In this document: positions 49,039 through 56,838 of the stretch, piece by piece
Numbering within the stretch: the first letter of the stretch is position 1
How the letters are laid out: each line of letters begins with the position of its first letter
DNA from: Chthoniobacteraceae bacterium
Lineage (GTDB): Bacteria > Verrucomicrobiota > Verrucomicrobiia > Chthoniobacterales > Chthoniobacteraceae
Assembly: GCA_947471505.1 (NCBI GenBank)
Contig: CANIWM010000032.1
Coordinates: 1 to 58,236, forward strand
DNA: 58,236 nt
Reading direction: 5' to 3'
Notes under the pieces: model-generated
Told to the model about the DNA's origin: nothing
Seen by the model: only the letters and a program-made list of their open reading frames with translations
Database searches by the model: none
Program-made: the position numbers and the translations under genes

Positions 49039-49902
49039 CTACTTCTTCCCCTTCACCTTCTGCGCTGGCGCGACTGGTGGCGGGACGGGCGTGGACACCG
49101 GCACGGCGAGATTCTCTCCTTGCGGCGGCTTCACCGGCGGCGGTGGCGCGGCTTTCTCGGGGGCGGGCGCTTCCGGCTTTTCTGGCTCCACTGGCAGGTC
49201 TGCAAACGGGTCTTCCTTCGGGCCGGATTCGCCCTCGATAGTGGCGTCGTCGAAGAACACCACGCCGTTCGTCTCCCCCGCTTGCGGCGGAGTCTCCCAA
49301 GTCCAAGTCACGCGCATAAACGCGGCATCCTCGGGCGACTTGAGGTTGGCAAAATACTCCGTCCATTTCGCCGCCGTGAACATCAGCGGGCGACTGCGAC
49401 TGCCGGGGATGGGCTGCACGCGATACTCGACATTGCCCGTCTGCTCTTCTTTGTCTGCCTTGAACCAATCGACCCGCATCTTCAAATGCGGCACCCGCTG
49501 GTCGAGGGTGACGGGGTTCTTCTTATCAATCCGCCCCCAGATGGAGACGTGATATTTCTCGCTCGGCTTGATGCTCACAAAATCGCTCGCTAGTTGCGCC
49601 ACCGCAGCAGGCCGCGTGAGTTGATCGAACTGCACAAACATGCACTGCCGCCCCGTGCGAAAGACCTCATTCGTCAGCCCCAGCACGAGCTTCCCGCCCT
49701 CGCCCGTCGCGCTATCTTTGAACGTGTACCACTCCGCATTCATCGCCGACTTCGACACATCCGCGCCCTCCGCCAGCGACTTCCGCCGGGAAACCGGCGG
49801 CCATTCAAAAGAGCCACTCTCCAGCAGTTGCGTGGGCTCCGCGAGAGCAGTCGCAGAGGCGCAAAAAAGAGCGATGGCAGTAGTGTGGACAAGTTGAGAC
49901 AT
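49039..49902 (-). CDS. Exported protein with a jelly-roll-like domain and proline-rich tail
   Basis: The 287-residue product has a signal peptide (AIALFCASATALA before EPTQLLES). Its central part is strand-rich (GSFEWPPVSRRKSLAEGADV, HVSIWGRIDKKNPVTL, TNGVVFFDDATIEGE) and resembles a carbohydrate-binding type beta-sandwich, given the start NGSFE/NGVVFFDD pattern. The last 70 residues are mostly Pro, Ala, Val and Lys. Its ligand is unknown. It is separated by a palindromic element from the minus-strand three-gene run upstream, so it is probably a separate transcript. Confidence 0.7.
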   Translation of the reverse strand: MSQLVHTTAIALFCASATALAEPTQLLESGSFEWPPVSRRKSLAEGADVSKSAMNAEWYTFKDSATGEGGKLVLGLTNEVFRTGRQCMFVQFDQLTRPAAVAQLASDFVSIKPSEKYHVSIWGRIDKKNPVTLDQRVPHLKMRVDWFKADKEEQTGNVEYRVQPIPGSRSRPLMFTAAKWTEYFANLKSPEDAAFMRVTWTWETPPQAGETNGVVFFDDATIEGESGPKEDPFADLPVEPEKPEAPAPEKAAPPPPVKPPQGENLAVPVSTPVPPPVAPAQKVKGKK

Positions 49903-49949
49903 GGCGGGACGTTACGCAGAATGAGGCGTGATGCGAGCAAAACGCCGGG

Positions 49950-50135
49950 CTCGACCTTGTAGTGCGGTGGCAAAGCGAGGAACGAGCGCGACACCGCCTT
50001 GTAAGTAACACTCTGTGTCTCGGGCGCATGTGGTTTCCTCGTTAGTCGCGGGCGCTCGGTTGTCCGCACCCTCGTACGCCTTGCGAAGGCGGCGTGGCGC
50101 TCGTTCCTCGCTTCCCGCCGCACTACAAAGCCGAG
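49950..50135. repeat. Palindromic element with 50-base inverted arms
   Basis: The left arm (49950-50000) contains TTGTAGTGCGGTGGCAAAGC and GCGAGGAACGAGCGC. The right arm (50086-50135) is its complement with about six differences and one indel. An 85-base middle separates them. It lies between the jelly-roll gene and the secretin-like operon, and fills most of that 240-base gap. Confidence 0.8.
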
Positions 50136-50142
50136 TATCCCC

Positions 50143-50943
50143 TCATTTTGAAGTGGGCGGCTCAGCGTTTGGCTCGTCGAGCTTTTCGACGGGAATACCT
50201 GTATCCAGAATAGTCGCCGTGCAGATCGCGATTTCAACGGTGTTGATAGGCTCGCGCAGTTTATGGAAGCTCAGCAACGTCGGCTGTCCGCTCGCGACGC
50301 TGATGGATGAGGAAGTCTTGAGCACCATGAAATCGGGTTGCTCCACGGATACTTTGTAGGTCGGCGATACTTCGATGGTGTTCTTACGGTTGCCGATGAA
50401 GATCTGGTGCTGAAGGTTGTAGAGGAATTGCACGTGCTTAAAGTCGGGCGCGATGACCGGGTCTGCATCGAACAAGACGCCGAGAAGCTTCACTTCGAAG
50501 TTCGTGGGTATGCCGCCGGCGAGTTTCAGTTCACCGTCCAGTTTGATGTGCTTTTTCTTGTCTGTGTCCGGTTGTTTCGCCGCTGGGTCGGGCGCGAGCG
50601 GGACGGGCAATGGGGTCGATCCATAGTCACTCGCATCGAGCACGACGGAGGGCGCTTCGAATTCAGTCGGATAGCGATATTCATTGATGTTTTCGACCGT
50701 GGCGCGCTGGCCGGAACCGGTGGTGAGCGTAGGCCAGTCCACGAGTTCAGCACCTTTGCCGAGCATGGAAACGAGCTCCTCTTGCGCTGCTGCGGCTTTC
50801 GCGGAATCACGGAGTCTGGGCAAAATGGACACGGCTTTGGCTTCGGAGACTCGGACGATGAGGACATCGAAGCGAACTTGATGCACCGTCTCGGCGGCGA
50901 ATGCGGAGGTGGAGATGATGATGAGTGCGGCGAGTAGTTTCAT
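50143..50943 (-). CDS. Exported protein, secretin-like RYPTE module family (member A)
   Basis: This 266-residue product has a signal peptide (MKLLAALIIISTSAFAAE). It holds one copy of a module shared with the next two upstream genes: a helical first part, then RYPTEF (90-95) in ENINEYRYPTEFEAP. A strand pair follows (FEVKLLGVLFDADPVIAPDF at 149-168), then a QPDF string (202-205), SISVASGQPTLLS and VEIAICTA near the end. The order and spacing recall the C-terminal half of secretins, which form outer-membrane rings. No secretin signature is complete. It overlaps the next gene by four bases (ATGA), so it is the last gene of a coupled operon. Confidence 0.75.
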   Translation of the reverse strand: MKLLAALIIISTSAFAAETVHQVRFDVLIVRVSEAKAVSILPRLRDSAKAAAAQEELVSMLGKGAELVDWPTLTTGSGQRATVENINEYRYPTEFEAPSVVLDASDYGSTPLPVPLAPDPAAKQPDTDKKKHIKLDGELKLAGGIPTNFEVKLLGVLFDADPVIAPDFKHVQFLYNLQHQIFIGNRKNTIEVSPTYKVSVEQPDFMVLKTSSSISVASGQPTLLSFHKLREPINTVEIAICTATILDTGIPVEKLDEPNAEPPTSK

Positions 50944-52340
50944 GGTGTTTTAAGAGTGAATCGGTTGGTTTTCAGACGTGCGATGGTGATTTCCACATCG
51001 TCGTTTGGCGCAGTGCGACGGTGGAATGATTGGAGCACCCATTTCCCGATGGGCAGTGCGCGGTTTGTCATCGTGCGGCGCTCGGTAAAAACGGGCTGAT
51101 AGTCGTAGAGTCGTTCGCCTTGATGGTCCGCCACATCGAGGCGGCGGATGAAGCCGTTGTTCTCGATCTGCTTGTCGTTCACGTTCAGCAGCGCCGCACT
51201 TTCCGTAGCATAGTAGGGGTCAATCTCGATTTCAAAAACCGAGCCCACATTCTTAATCTCAAACATCTGCTGTGGCGGCAGCGGGATGTAATCCGGCGTG
51301 ACCACCGTCCGATGCGGACCCAAAAAGTGCCGCCAGTTGTCTCGGTTTACGCTCGGAGGTAGTGCCCAAAATGCTGCGGCCCGCTTGTCCACTTGGAGCG
51401 TCGGCGGTCCTCCGCCCCTGGCGTCAAACTCTGTCGGGTAGCGAACTTCGAGAACATTCTCCTGCCAAGCCTGCTGCCCGTGGATAGTCGGAAGACTCAC
51501 ACACTCGGCGAGCGTGGCTTTCCCCTCGGCTGCCAACTTCCTCAAAATCTCATCCGCAGCCTTATCTCCCCGCTCAATCGCGATGCGAGCGCGTATGCCA
51601 TCGGCAACCGGCAGACGATAGCGCAGGAGTTCAATTCTCGACATCCGCGCGGCCCCGACTGGCTCCGCTTCCACCTTTGGCTCTGCCGTGCCCGATGCCG
51701 TCAACGTGACAATATGCAGTTCCAATTGCTCCGGCTTTTCGTGCTCCAAGTAACAGCCCACCAAAGTCGGAATGCCACTCCGCGCGACGATTATCGTGCG
51801 CGTATTTTTTGTGACGAACTTTGGCTGTTCGATCACGTATTTGATTCCGTCGGCACGGATGCCGTATTCGTAGCGGATATTGCCGGGATGCGAGACGCGC
51901 TGGGTGGTGATGCTGGCCTGAATCACCGCTCCGCCCGCCCAAACCGCGGGCGATGATTTGAGAGTCGTCCCGATGTTTTTCACTTCCATCACCGTCGGCG
52001 CTGCCGGGATCGCGAGACCGCTGGCACGACTTGGAGCCAAACGCGGATTAGGCGATTCATACTCGGTCGGGTAGCGATGCTCCGTGACATCCTCGGCCAC
52101 AGAGTCTCCACCATCCGCCACAGTTCCAAACAACTCCGCAACGAGCACCGCACGACCATCTCCGAGCATTCGCTCCACCATCGCAGTGGCCTCGCGCGTC
52201 GTTCGCTCTTCGGAAAACAGCTCCACGATTTCCAAGCCCGACGATACCGGGAGACGCACCACGCGGAACTCGGTCGCGACATTCCACGCGGCCCACGCGC
52301 GAACGGACATGCAGCACAGCAGCAAGAAAAGCGGCTTCAT
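50940..52340 (-). CDS. Exported protein, secretin-like RYPTE module family (member B, two modules)
   Basis: The 466-residue product starts with a signal peptide (MKPLFLLLCCMSVRAWA) and contains two copies of the shared module. Module one has RYPTEY (89-94), MEVKNIGTTLKSS (118-130), EQPKF (171-175) and IPTLVGCYLEHEKPEQLELH. Module two has RYPTEF (300-305), FEIKNVGSVFEIEIDP (360-375), QPVF (415-418) and DDVEITIARL near the end. The LVG and QLELH-type strings resemble the closing strands of secretins. It overlaps both neighbours by four bases. Confidence 0.75.
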   Translation of the reverse strand: MKPLFLLLCCMSVRAWAAWNVATEFRVVRLPVSSGLEIVELFSEERTTREATAMVERMLGDGRAVLVAELFGTVADGGDSVAEDVTEHRYPTEYESPNPRLAPSRASGLAIPAAPTVMEVKNIGTTLKSSPAVWAGGAVIQASITTQRVSHPGNIRYEYGIRADGIKYVIEQPKFVTKNTRTIIVARSGIPTLVGCYLEHEKPEQLELHIVTLTASGTAEPKVEAEPVGAARMSRIELLRYRLPVADGIRARIAIERGDKAADEILRKLAAEGKATLAECVSLPTIHGQQAWQENVLEVRYPTEFDARGGGPPTLQVDKRAAAFWALPPSVNRDNWRHFLGPHRTVVTPDYIPLPPQQMFEIKNVGSVFEIEIDPYYATESAALLNVNDKQIENNGFIRRLDVADHQGERLYDYQPVFTERRTMTNRALPIGKWVLQSFHRRTAPNDDVEITIARLKTNRFTLKTP

Positions 52341-52999
52341 TTTGCAACGGGCATCGTCCAGCCACGGAGGATGAAAAGCTCCACTTCATCGGGCTTGCCG
52401 GGCACGGCATGGACGCCGAGTAGCGTGCGCTTACCGGACTTCAATGAAATGCTGCCCGCGTGGCGGGAGATAGAAAACTGCGGCTGCTTCAGCGTCACCT
52501 TCGAGTCATCCGGGAGCCGCGCAGCCTCGACTTCGCTCCAGCCGATGAGCCGGACGTGAGACTCCTCCGTTTTCAGCCGAAGCGTCTGCCCGTCGGGGCT
52601 CACCGCACTCTCCGCCGAGAAACGCACGCCGACTTCCCGCACTTCAAACGTCGTGGGATTCAGCGCCACGGCGGGCACCTTCCCGTCGCCAACCGGCTTG
52701 GCTGGTGCCCACTCCGATGCGTAACGCACTTCGTCCACCTGCTTCGATTCGAGCTTCCCGCCAGCATCGCAGCGCCCGGTGAGCGTGGCTACGGCGTGAG
52801 CCTCGCCCGCAGTCACTAAACTCTCCAGCTTGGCAAAAGCCGCATCGATTTTCGCATCGTCCCGCAGCTCCGGCATGAGCGCGGCAGCCTGCTTTTTCGC
52901 CAACGTGACGACGTAGAACTCCGTATGGATGCTCCAATCTGCCCACGCGGTCTGCACCGCCGCGCAAATACAAATCAAAACCGGGAAGAGGGTTTTCAT
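52337..52999 (-). CDS. Exported protein, secretin-like RYPTE module family (member C)
   Basis: The start at 52999 gives 220 residues with a signal peptide (MKTLFPVLICICAAVQTAWA). The module reads VRYASE (91-96, a variant of RYPTE), FEVREVGVRFSAESAVSPDG (118-137), KQPQFS (171-176), SISLKSGKRTLLG (183-195) and EVELFIL (205-211). It is the first gene of the operon. A longer frame begins at 53077 but lacks a signal peptide. The divergent kexin-like protease gene starts about 200 bases away, and the two may share a regulatory region. Confidence 0.75.
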   Translation of the reverse strand: MKTLFPVLICICAAVQTAWADWSIHTEFYVVTLAKKQAAALMPELRDDAKIDAAFAKLESLVTAGEAHAVATLTGRCDAGGKLESKQVDEVRYASEWAPAKPVGDGKVPAVALNPTTFEVREVGVRFSAESAVSPDGQTLRLKTEESHVRLIGWSEVEAARLPDDSKVTLKQPQFSISRHAGSISLKSGKRTLLGVHAVPGKPDEVELFILRGWTMPVAK

Positions 53000-53196: not shown

Positions 53197-56100
53197 ATGC
53201 TCCGCTCCATCGCCATCATCGCTTTCTTCGCGACTACCCGTTTCGCGTCCGCCGAGACCTTTGCCATCAAGGACGAAGGTGCCGTTCGTTCGTTCGAGGT
53301 CGCGACGGATGAGCTTGGCAGCATCGGGCGCGATGGGCGCGGCTCGTTGATAAAAGCGACGGCTCAACAGCACGCGGATGCTCGCCGGAATGGTCGCGAC
53401 CTCGTGCTCTACGAAAAGGGCCGCCCGCACAATGAGTTCACGCGCCGCTGGCTCACGGCCCGCGTCCTCGTGAAGCTCGCGCCGGGCGCAGATGCCGCCG
53501 CTTTGGCAAAAGAGATCGGTGCGGTGCGGGTCGAGCAGCCTGATTTCGCGCCGGGCTACGCGATTTTCGATGCGCCCGCGGGCGCGCTCACGCTCGTGGA
53601 TTTGCTGCGCAAAAAAGCGGGCGTCGAGAGTGCCGAGCCGCTGCTCGCTCGGCAGGGGAAGAAGCGCTTCATTCCCACCGATCCGCTTTTTTCCGACAAC
53701 GTCGCAAACGTCGGCTACCAGTGGCACCTGCGCAACGTCGGCACGCGCGGCGGCACTGCGGGGATTGACCTGAATATCACCACCGCTTGGGACACCGTGC
53801 GCGGCGCGGGCGTGAAAATCGGCATCGTGGACGACGGCCTCGACATCCTCCACCCCGACCTCGCCGCCAACGTGGATGCCACCGCCAGCCACGACTTTAA
53901 CGACGGCGACGCCGACCCTTCGCCAAGCACCGCCGCCGACATTCACGGCACCTCCGTCGCCGGCCTCGCCGCTGCCCGCGCGAATAACGCCAGCGGCGGC
54001 TCCGGCGTCGCCCCGGAGTCCACGCTCGCCGGGCTCCGACTCCTCGGCGGACCGCAGACGGACGCGGGCGACGCCGCCGCATTTGCATGGCGCAACGACA
54101 TCATCGCCATCAAGAGCAACTCGTGGGGCCCCGACGACGACGGCGCGACCCTCGGCGGCCCTGGGACGCTGGCCAGCGCAGCTTTGCAGAGCGCCGTAGC
54201 CACCGGGCGCGGGGGAAAAGGAACCGTCTTCTGCTGGGCTGGCGGCAACGGCGGCACGGGCGATAATTCCAATTTCGACGGCTACGCAAACAGCCCTTAC
54301 GTGCTCACTTTTGGCGCGATCACCGACGCCGGGACGCAAGCGCCCTACAGCGAAAGCGGCGCAAACCTCACCGCCAGCGTCCCCTCCGACGGCGGCGCAC
54401 AATTGATCACCACCACCGACGTGCGCGCACTCGCCGGGTATAACAACGGACACACCGCAGGCAATTTCCCCGACGGCGATTTCACCAACGACTTCGGCGG
54501 CACCTCCGCCGCCGCGCCGCTCGCATCCGGCATCGCCGCGCTCGTCCTGCAAACGAACCCCGCCCTCGGCTGGCGCGACGTGCAAGAAATCCTCATCCGC
54601 TCCGCTCGAAAAAACGCGCCCACCGACTCCGACTGGGCCAACAACGGAGCTGGCATCCATTTCAACCATAAGTTCGGCGCGGGCCTGCTCGACGCCACCG
54701 CCGCCGTCACCCTCGCGACCGACTGGGTGAACCTCGGCCCACTCACCACCCTCCGCAAGCTCGACGTCATCCCCGCCAACATCCCCGACGCCCCATCCAC
54801 CGGCCTCTCGCGCACATTCACCTTCGCCGCGAGCGATGGGCTGCGCGTGGAAAAAGCGGCACTCACCGTCAGCCTCACGCACGCCGCGCGCGGCACGCTC
54901 GAAGTGGACCTCACGTCCCCCAGCGGCATGGTCAGCCACCTCGCCACCACCCGCGCACTCGATACCGGCGCGAACCTCGACTGGACATTTTCCACCGCCC
55001 GCCACTGGGGCGAAAGCGCCGTCGGCACATGGACCGTCACCGTCCGCGACACCCTCATCGGCGACGTCGGCGTGCTCAATCGCCTCACGCTAGAGCTTCA
55101 CGGCAGCGCCCCCACCGGCACTAGCGCGCCCATTATAAATAGCGGCACTACCGCCAGCGGGAACGCCGGTTCTGCATTCGGTTTTCGCATCACCGCGAGC
55201 AACGCGCCCACCAGCTTCGCCGCCACCGGGCTCCCAGCGGGACTCAGCATCAATGCCCTCACCGGGCTCATCAGCGGCACCGGCACTACGTCGGGAAATT
55301 ACGCCGTCGGCGTCAGCGCCACGAACACTTTTGGCACCGCCAACAGCACCCTCACCATCACCCTCGGCAGCAATCTCGTCGCCGCAATCGCCGACGCCAT
55401 AGACCAGCCCGCCCTCACCTGGGAACTAGACCTCGCCAACGTCTGGGCCCGCGTCACCGGCACCGCGCCCGCCGTCACCCACGACGGCACCGACGCCGCC
55501 CGCACTCCCACCATCACCGACAACGGCAGTACCTCATTTTCCACCATCATCGTCGGCCCGCAGGTCATCCGCTTCTTTTGGAAAGTATCCTCCGAAGCCA
55601 ACTACGACATCCTCCACTTCGCGCTCGACGACGTGGACCAAGCCACCCTCAGCGGCAACGTAGATTGGCAGCAGCGCGGCTTCCTCATCCCCGCAGGCGC
55701 GCACGCACTCCGCTGGACCTACGATAAAGACGTGAGCGGCAGCGCAGGCAGCGACGCCGCGTGGGTGGACCAAATCACCCTCACTCCCTTCGCCACCTCG
55801 CTCCCCGTCTTCACCATCGAGCCCACACCCATCACCGTCGCAGTCGGCGGCACCGCAGCATTCATCAGCAAAGCCGATGGCCCCGGCACCATCACCTACC
55901 AATGGCAGCGCAACGCCGCCAACATCGTCGGAGCCACCAGCCGCACCTACACCTTCACCGCCGCCACCGCAGGCACCTACACCTGCCTCGCCACCAACTC
56001 CCTCGGCACTACCACCAGTCTCCCCGCCATCCTCACCGTCGCCACCGCAGACACCAACATCCAAAACGCCGTAGATAACACCCTCATCTGGGCCAAGACC

Positions 56101-56838
56101 GGCAGTTTCCCGCAATTCTCCCGCATTGCCTCCACCTCTTCGGTCAACACCCATGATGCTGTGGACAGCGCCATCGCCACCGGCCTCATCGCAGGCTCGG
56201 ATACGACCATCTCCACCACCGTCGTCGGCCCCGGCACGCTCACCTTCTGGTGGCGTTCAGATGGCACGGTTGACAGCGACGTGCTCGGCTTCAACCTCGA
56301 CGGAATCGAAACCGACTACATCACCAATACCGGCGCGTTTTTACAAAACACGCAGTCCATCCCCGCAGGCATCCATACCATCTCTTGGACCTTCTACGCG
56401 GGCACCGGCACCGGGCGCGGCATCGTGGACCAAGTCGCCTTCGCCCTCACTCCCTACGGCACATGGCAGGCCGCGAAATTCACCACCGCCCAGCGCATCG
56501 ACAGCCTCATCTCCGGCCCCACCGCAGACCCCGACGCCGACGGCATCCCCAATATCACCGAGCAATACTTCGGCACCCTCCCCACCGCCCCGACCGTCGC
56601 CCCAACCACCATCGCCTACGAAGCGCCGAATTACACATTTACCTACAAAAAAGACACCTCTGCATCGACGATCGCGCGCACCATCGAGCACACCACAGAC
56701 CTCTATAATTGGACCCCCGTCACCGCCACCGAGAGCATCCTTAGCACCGTCGGCACCGTGCAGACCGTCAAAGCCACTCTCCCCAGCGTGACTGGGGGCC
56801 AACACACCTACCGGTTGCGGCTGGAACTGAGCGAGTAG
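53197..56838 (+). CDS. Secreted kexin-like serine protease (family S8) with P domain and Ig-like repeats
   Basis: The ATG at 53197 gives 1213 residues: a signal peptide (MLRSIAIIAFFATTRFASA), an I9-like prosegment (residues 85-160) and an S8 catalytic domain (about 170-490). The catalytic residues are Asp212 in GIVDDGLD, His250 in DIHGTSVAGL and Ser437 in GGTSAAAPLASG, with Asn351 (AGGNGGTGDN) as a likely oxyanion residue. The order and motifs resemble kexin-type S8B proteases. A P domain follows (about 515-640), then Ig-like domains including SNAPTSFAATGLPAGLSINA and an I-set-like stretch. The C-terminus holds DPDADGIPNITEQYF. It probably matures surface proteins or digests extracellular protein. 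Confidence 0.9.
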   Translation: MLRSIAIIAFFATTRFASAETFAIKDEGAVRSFEVATDELGSIGRDGRGSLIKATAQQHADARRNGRDLVLYEKGRPHNEFTRRWLTARVLVKLAPGADAAALAKEIGAVRVEQPDFAPGYAIFDAPAGALTLVDLLRKKAGVESAEPLLARQGKKRFIPTDPLFSDNVANVGYQWHLRNVGTRGGTAGIDLNITTAWDTVRGAGVKIGIVDDGLDILHPDLAANVDATASHDFNDGDADPSPSTAADIHGTSVAGLAAARANNASGGSGVAPESTLAGLRLLGGPQTDAGDAAAFAWRNDIIAIKSNSWGPDDDGATLGGPGTLASAALQSAVATGRGGKGTVFCWAGGNGGTGDNSNFDGYANSPYVLTFGAITDAGTQAPYSESGANLTASVPSDGGAQLITTTDVRALAGYNNGHTAGNFPDGDFTNDFGGTSAAAPLASGIAALVLQTNPALGWRDVQEILIRSARKNAPTDSDWANNGAGIHFNHKFGAGLLDATAAVTLATDWVNLGPLTTLRKLDVIPANIPDAPSTGLSRTFTFAASDGLRVEKAALTVSLTHAARGTLEVDLTSPSGMVSHLATTRALDTGANLDWTFSTARHWGESAVGTWTVTVRDTLIGDVGVLNRLTLELHGSAPTGTSAPIINSGTTASGNAGSAFGFRITASNAPTSFAATGLPAGLSINALTGLISGTGTTSGNYAVGVSATNTFGTANSTLTITLGSNLVAAIADAIDQPALTWELDLANVWARVTGTAPAVTHDGTDAARTPTITDNGSTSFSTIIVGPQVIRFFWKVSSEANYDILHFALDDVDQATLSGNVDWQQRGFLIPAGAHALRWTYDKDVSGSAGSDAAWVDQITLTPFATSLPVFTIEPTPITVAVGGTAAFISKADGPGTITYQWQRNAANIVGATSRTYTFTAATAGTYTCLATNSLGTTTSLPAILTVATADTNIQNAVDNTLIWAKTGSFPQFSRIASTSSVNTHDAVDSAIATGLIAGSDTTISTTVVGPGTLTFWWRSDGTVDSDVLGFNLDGIETDYITNTGAFLQNTQSIPAGIHTISWTFYAGTGTGRGIVDQVAFALTPYGTWQAAKFTTAQRIDSLISGPTADPDADGIPNITEQYFGTLPTAPTVAPTTIAYEAPNYTFTYKKDTSASTIARTIEHTTDLYNWTPVTATESILSTVGTVQTVKATLPSVTGGQHTYRLRLELSE

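Follow-up and report, generated by a model that had tools for sequence, protein, structure and literature searches.

We analysed a window of 58,236 nucleotides from a Chthoniobacteraceae bacterium (positions 1 to 58,236 of contig CANIWM010000032.1, assembly GCA_947471505.1), which carries on its minus strand, at 50143-52999, an operon of three genes coupled by ATGA overlaps. The operon encodes four modules of about 200 residues, one gene carrying two of them. Secretins are homo-oligomeric channels that serve pili and secretion machines as gates in the outer membrane; they have N-terminal rings, and their membrane loop is highly conserved. The modules of the operon are, with near certainty, stand-alone secretin C-domains that share ancestry and fold with the pilus secretin of the Amuc_1098 family.

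The operon and its modules

The genes and features of the operon are as follows.

52337..52999, minus strand: gene 1 (P0003), 220 amino acids (aa), first in order; leader and one secretin-core module, RYASE variant
50940..52340, minus strand: gene 2 (P0002), 466 aa; leader and two secretin-core modules in tandem
51687..52292, minus strand: module 2a of P0002, by profile match
50955..51650, minus strand: module 2b of P0002, the most divergent module, by profile match and AlphaFold model with a secretin fold
50143..50943, minus strand: gene 3 (P0001), 266 aa; leader and one secretin-core module; AlphaFold model
52337..52340, minus strand: ATGA overlap of genes 1 and 2, from the sequence
50940..50943, minus strand: ATGA overlap of genes 2 and 3, from the sequence
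50659..50676, minus strand: RYPTEF motif, residues 90-95 of P0001, from the sequence
50242..50256, minus strand: short turn REPIN between the last two strands, residues 230-234 of P0001 (213-217 of the model), at the place of the membrane-loop region in full secretins

The layout put forward in the original prediction (three ATGA-coupled genes, four modules, one gene doubled) agrees with the open reading frames and with both junctions as read on the coding strand. Of the motifs that it described as shared, QPxF is present in all four modules and RYPTE is exact in three, P0003 having RYASE. The DNA repeat family D1 falls at the RYPTEF-equivalent place in each of the four. A hydrophobic leader stands at the start of P0001, P0002 and P0003; leaders and lipoboxes were assigned by eye throughout.

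A profile of 34 modules from other genera, from which genus g1 was excluded, matched P0002 at E 1.8e-50 (module 2a 1.7e-30, module 2b 1.3e-18), P0001 at 5e-44 and P0003 at 7.9e-42. When the three proteins were shuffled into 600 copies, the same profile matched none of them at E<=10, and it left the remaining 35 of the 38 window gene calls unmatched at E<=1. Orthologues of the three proteins were 94-95% identical in genome G006 and 45-59% identical in G009. The ratio of nonsynonymous to synonymous substitution rates (dN/dS) between the window genome (G000) and G006 was 0.13 for P0001, 0.30 for P0002 and 0.17 for P0003, with 0.04 in a phosphoglycerate-kinase-like gene for scale; against G009 the values were 0.15, 0.27 and 0.38, with dS partly saturated. 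Since orthologues exist in both genomes with dN/dS of 0.13-0.38, the operon genes are, as judged from these comparisons, real and under purifying selection. Chance or spurious reading frames were ruled out by the profile scores against shuffles, by dN/dS and by the preserved ATGA junctions.

Secretin homology and missing domains

Pfam assigned no domain to P0001-P0003 (one chance row, P0001 at E 0.16), and its Secretin model PF00263 gave no match at E<=1. The NCBIfam model Amuc_1098_fam (NF042912) matched P0001 at 1.7e-10, P0002 at 3.7e-6 and P0003 at 0.0024; the scores of 39.6, 25.3 and 16 bits are all far under its equivalog cut-off of 750 bits. The same model also matched nine of ten other modules. 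An alignment of 26 modules compared by hhalign with one of 19 full-length Amuc_1098-family secretins gave a probability of 99.9 and an E of 5.8e-34. A profile made from 26 stand-alone modules and free of full secretins matched P0006 at 1e-37. P0006 is the full secretin of the same genome (877 aa, contig C3, locus L011; 830 bits against the cut-off of 750). A direct sequence match of the modules to secretins of the PDB was rejected, as the A1 module profile gave seven rows among the PDB sequences, all at E >= 0.47 and none a secretin; the link therefore runs via the Amuc_1098 family and the structure models.

P0006 is preceded by genes matching the Amuc_1102, Amuc_1101, Amuc_1100 and Amuc_1099 families. 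The Amuc_1101 match is PilM-like and scores 599.9 bits, under the 650 of that model and above the cut-off of the PilM model. This pilus cluster lies elsewhere in the genome. The modules share with the Amuc_1098 pilus secretin a homologous C-domain, the motifs RY(P/A)TEFEAP and QPxF and the secretin fold, but they lack its N-terminal approximately 600 residues and its membrane-loop signature, and the operon genes are not in the pilus cluster.

The AlphaFold model of mature P0001, built with 17 sequences, reached a pLDDT of 86.5 and a pTM of 0.74, with most core blocks at 95-98 and the loop after RYPTEF at 44-64. All 22 Foldseek PDB rows at E<=0.001 were secretins or secretin-bearing complexes. 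In the VIA table, secretins likewise filled the top 28 rows, with Z of 9.2-13.5, and the first unrelated row stood at 6.8, which excluded an unrelated beta-protein fold. Residues 2-230 of the model cover residues 316-587 of V. cholerae GspD and span the secretin C-domain from the first to the last strand, with a good alignment of the core (128 residues, 2.3 A, Z 13.5). Because only one relative covers the second half of P0002 in alignment A4, module 2b was given a model of its own, which had a pLDDT of 81.5, and 13 of 13 Foldseek PDB rows at E<=0.001 were secretins. The models thus cover two of the four modules.

The module begins directly after the leader in the window proteins, leaving no room for N domains, and no Pfam N-domain match (N0/STN, N1-N3) was obtained in P0001-P0003. 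For the membrane loop, the amphipathic helical loop (AHL), we took the consensus letters P..G..P..G..F as its signature, and we read the presence of this signature as that of the AHL. The signature was found in 19 of 19 full secretins and in no module hit out of 60 (59 without the duplicate L066, which is on the same contig as L058), a count from which matches under 140 profile positions and full-length secretin loci were left out. Between the conserved glycine and the last strand lie 44 residues in 19 of 19 secretins and 15-25 in 57 of 59 modules; the two others are truncated (0). The PF00263 match ends at profile position 120-122 of 169 in all five matching module proteins, and the full secretin P0006 covers positions 2-168. 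Relatives at L010 (47 bits) and L043 (41.2 bits) exceed the PF00263 gathering score of 27.5 and those at L074, L068 and L077 fall below it, while the window proteins are unmatched; the matches of the relatives end before the AHL part. The median length of the turn is 9 residues in the clan of the operon versus 36 in secretins, and the median number of hydrophobic residues in its best 8-residue stretch is 2 in this clan, 2-3 in other clans and 5 in secretins. In the modules, the region that bears the AHL in full secretins has thus shrunk to a short turn that is mostly polar. The loop between RYPTEF and PTxFEV, in our reading the place of Gate 1, measures 17-61 residues in the operon clan and 20-39 in secretins; no conclusion was drawn from it, since its length varies in secretins too.

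The AHL has been reported in all structurally characterised secretins and tied to membrane association, and it is thought to begin the contact with the membrane (as stated in excerpts of PMC6532946 and PMC6155069). It is located between two membrane strands (excerpt of PMC8134430). With the AHL and N3 missing, a canonical channel is unlikely, and we consider it probable that the modules are not canonical outer-membrane secretin channels. The original prediction had noted a secretin-like strand order, which the profiles and models establish as true homology, and the structure prediction that it proposed as a check returned secretins for two of the four modules (P0001 and 2b). Its statement that N domains and the signature are absent was upheld by Pfam and by the AHL count (0 of 60 module hits). 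Its suggestion of a small outer-membrane pore has lost ground, the AHL being absent from the modules examined and a short polar turn standing in its place.

Two described secretins bear comparison. Mitochondrial GspD, proposed to work in a set resembling the type II secretion system, is likewise a C-domain without N domains, with secretin functions split over several polypeptides; it keeps pore formation without N domains, but it has the AHL, whose signature the modules lack (as far as the excerpted text of PMC8134430 describes it). Phage f1 pIV (7ofh) is a compact secretin, and its structural row against the P0001 model reached Z 13.4 over 130 residues. It has one N0 and one N3 domain (excerpt of PMC8563730). 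A pIV-like phage origin of the operon was rejected, as a PHROGs search at E<=0.01 gave nothing for P0001-P0003 (phage genome records lay outside the search).

Relatives and their neighbourhoods

The operon was found in five of the ten genus genomes searched, with four modules in three genes in G000, G006 and G009 and three modules in three genes in G001 and G007. G002 holds a contig-edge fragment, and none was seen in the remaining four genus genomes. ATGA is present at all ten gene junctions across the five operon genomes. Gene calls in the neighbourhoods were made by a simple codon-score script, which overlooked the middle gene of the operon in G001 and G007, although the sequence has it. 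Of 40 genomes in the family, 12 carry one or more frames under 600 aa whose match starts no later than profile position 11 and extends at least to 205. Tandem arrays recur; G028, for example, has five modules side by side and G042 has three. Among the matches listed for the phylum sample are nearly complete ones in short frames from other families of the class. The whole-genome profile searches covered one phylum. A scan of 84,980 species genomes with two short peptide patterns found seven loci, all in metagenome-assembled genomes of Verrucomicrobiota; the patterns are narrow and leave room for relatives elsewhere. The original prediction knew of no described system with this layout. This accords with the open-licence literature, in which we recognised no description of stand-alone secretin cores lacking the AHL (subscription papers and preprints were outside the scope), but the layout itself is not unique to this genome.

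A tree was built from 59 modules and 12 of the 19 secretins, with L066 left out and midpoint rooting for drawing only. The secretins form one clade (100/100). A gene-1 clade spanning three genera (98/91) unites the gene-1 modules of genus g1 with two modules of G028 and one of G042. Within P0002, 2a is the sister of 2b (97/91), and the pair stands tentatively beside the middle gene of G001 and G007 (97/70); P0002 therefore looks as if the middle gene had been doubled in frame. The modules of the last gene do not form a supported group.

Another clan (10 rows, 8 loci) is linked to histidine kinases. At six of its eight loci (L062, L067, L069, L072, L075 and L077) a HisKA-HATPase kinase and an OmpR-type regulator come after the module gene, and the same order is found at L078, which is long-branched and outside this clan in the tree. 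Pfam confirmed all seven kinases and all seven regulators, and the loci come from several genera. The exceptions are L050, with an AraC-type regulator instead, and L058, a 3.6-kb contig with neither. These counts are not a random sample, as the 20 neighbourhood loci were chosen from the best-looking stand-alone matches. A double module gene also occurs in L062 and L067. In this sister clan the module appears to have been recruited as an envelope partner of a histidine kinase, which shows that secretin cores can enter signalling operons, in a clan distinct from that of the window operon.

The clan of lone modules has six rows, four of them with a lipobox-like leader. These lone cores (L010:8245-8988, L044, L045 and L046; leaders ending in ..SGC or ..AGC) are possible lipoproteins. 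The module at L044:5925-6617 (contig C4 of G007) has a TAA before the last strands, and the similar L045 and L046 reach the last strand. L010 and the near-identical L048 of G006 adjoin a gene that by eye resembles UDP-galactopyranose mutase. A paired clan of other families has 10 rows, and in two genomes a protein of about 1,050 aa with VIT and SLBB domains lies after the core pair (L073:8647-11847 and L074:3350-6508).

In the window, the neighbours of the operon include a phosphoglycerate-kinase-like gene, an acyl carrier protein and a subtilase; the last is large and divergently oriented (53197-56838), with a P-domain, He_PIG and Ig-like domains. P0004 (49039-49902) was rejected as a fourth operon gene: it has no Pfam match at E<=1, is not beside the operon in G009 and lies 240 bases past P0001 with a repeat element in between. 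This element, just after the operon at 49950-50135, measures 186 bases, has inverted-repeat ends and 13 more near-full-length copies in the genome (74-89% identical), and looks like a small non-coding mobile or repetitive extragenic palindromic (REP)-type element. The segment 53015-53113, upstream of the operon, is repeated at 49852-49917 around the start of P0004 (78%) and nowhere else in the genome at E<=0.001; it can be read as a shared leader or a duplicated 5' region.

Possible roles of the secretin cores

We infer the export, oligomeric state, location and role of the modules, and give roughly even chances to the reading that they form an exported hetero-oligomeric ring or arc that is a scaffold or adaptor and not a canonical outer-membrane channel. 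The cores would be exported to the envelope, where the sheets that they have kept would let them pack side by side as a ring or arc of mixed subunits. It would lie in the periplasm or line the outer membrane on its inner face. Different modules would take different places in it, and the assembly would act as a scaffold or adaptor. That different subunits sit side by side is suggested by the strands kept, by the fusion of two modules in tandem and by the distinct lineage of gene 1; two cores in one chain, as in P0002, L062 and L067, would fit such packing. The scaffold that the original prediction named as the alternative to a pore is compatible with the modules, as a candidate role.

Several observations weigh against this reading or the homology beneath it. 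A profile of secretins only matches P0003 and module 2b weakly (domain E 6.9e-6 and 0.012), so that both are assigned through the module family and, in the case of 2b, also through the model. The global Foldseek TM-scores of the 22 rows are 0.33-0.46 by query length, with root-mean-square deviations of 12.7-26 A in gapped alignments. Not all turns are polar (module 2a of G009 has +0.64 on the Kyte-Doolittle scale), and a module without the AHL might still insert through its hydrophobic strands. The last-gene modules have no supported grouping; fixed places are therefore supported for gene 1 and more weakly for the middle gene. Finally, no constant neighbour names a function in the neighbourhoods among the matches listed.

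Insertion of this kind is at the centre of one alternative, in which the cores oligomerise and enter the outer membrane without N domains as a mini-secretin pore. The P0001 model does cover the whole strand range of the secretin C-domain. However, mitochondrial GspD retains the AHL, which is called essential for membrane insertion in the excerpted text of PMC8134430, and the modules lack both its signature and its length; N3, called required for pore assembly in the same text, is also absent from them, and we regard such a pore as improbable. It is also unlikely that the free cores regulate or cap the pilus secretin of their own genome by binding the open edges of the Amuc_1098-family protein, thereby tuning or limiting its assembly. 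The genome has that secretin in a pilus cluster of the Amuc_1098-1102 type, and the modules share its ancestry, but no module gene lies in the 18 kb examined around the cluster. Moreover, a full-length stand-alone module is missing from 28 of the 40 family genomes, and a secretin frame of 865-1,018 aa is seen in 24 of these 28, which indicates that the full secretin does not need the modules.

The kinase-linked loci raise a further explanation, that the modules are periplasmic sensors or ligand-binding partners of two-component systems and the window operon is a detached branch. The kinase and OmpR-type regulator directly after the module at six of eight loci of one clan, and at L078, speak for it; the window operon belongs to another clan, and no kinase was found among the Pfam-tested neighbours in G000, G006, G009 and G001, where most neighbours were judged by eye. 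We accordingly give it a small probability for the window operon. Least credible by far are functionless secretin duplicates in decay, for which one may cite the dN/dS of P0002, the highest of the three against G006 (0.30), and the internal stop in the relative on contig C4 of G007. The frames are intact down to 45% protein identity with dN/dS well under 1, and the gene order and ATGA overlaps are the same in five genomes.

The ring or arc scaffold can be taken further, to a mixed double-walled soluble ring in the envelope, in which four non-identical cores from three genes have given up membrane insertion; we hold this form to be doubtful, though less so than the pore, the cap or the sensor. 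If it is true, the secretin core serves Verrucomicrobiota as a general building block far from secretion, both in tandem arrays and as a partner of kinases. Exported cores in several families of one phylum, with the fold kept and the insertion loop lost, would separate "secretin fold" from "channel", and the modules would be natural tests of the roles of the AHL and N3. They would also name a protein family that Pfam misses in the three window proteins, one clan of which is tied to two-component systems.

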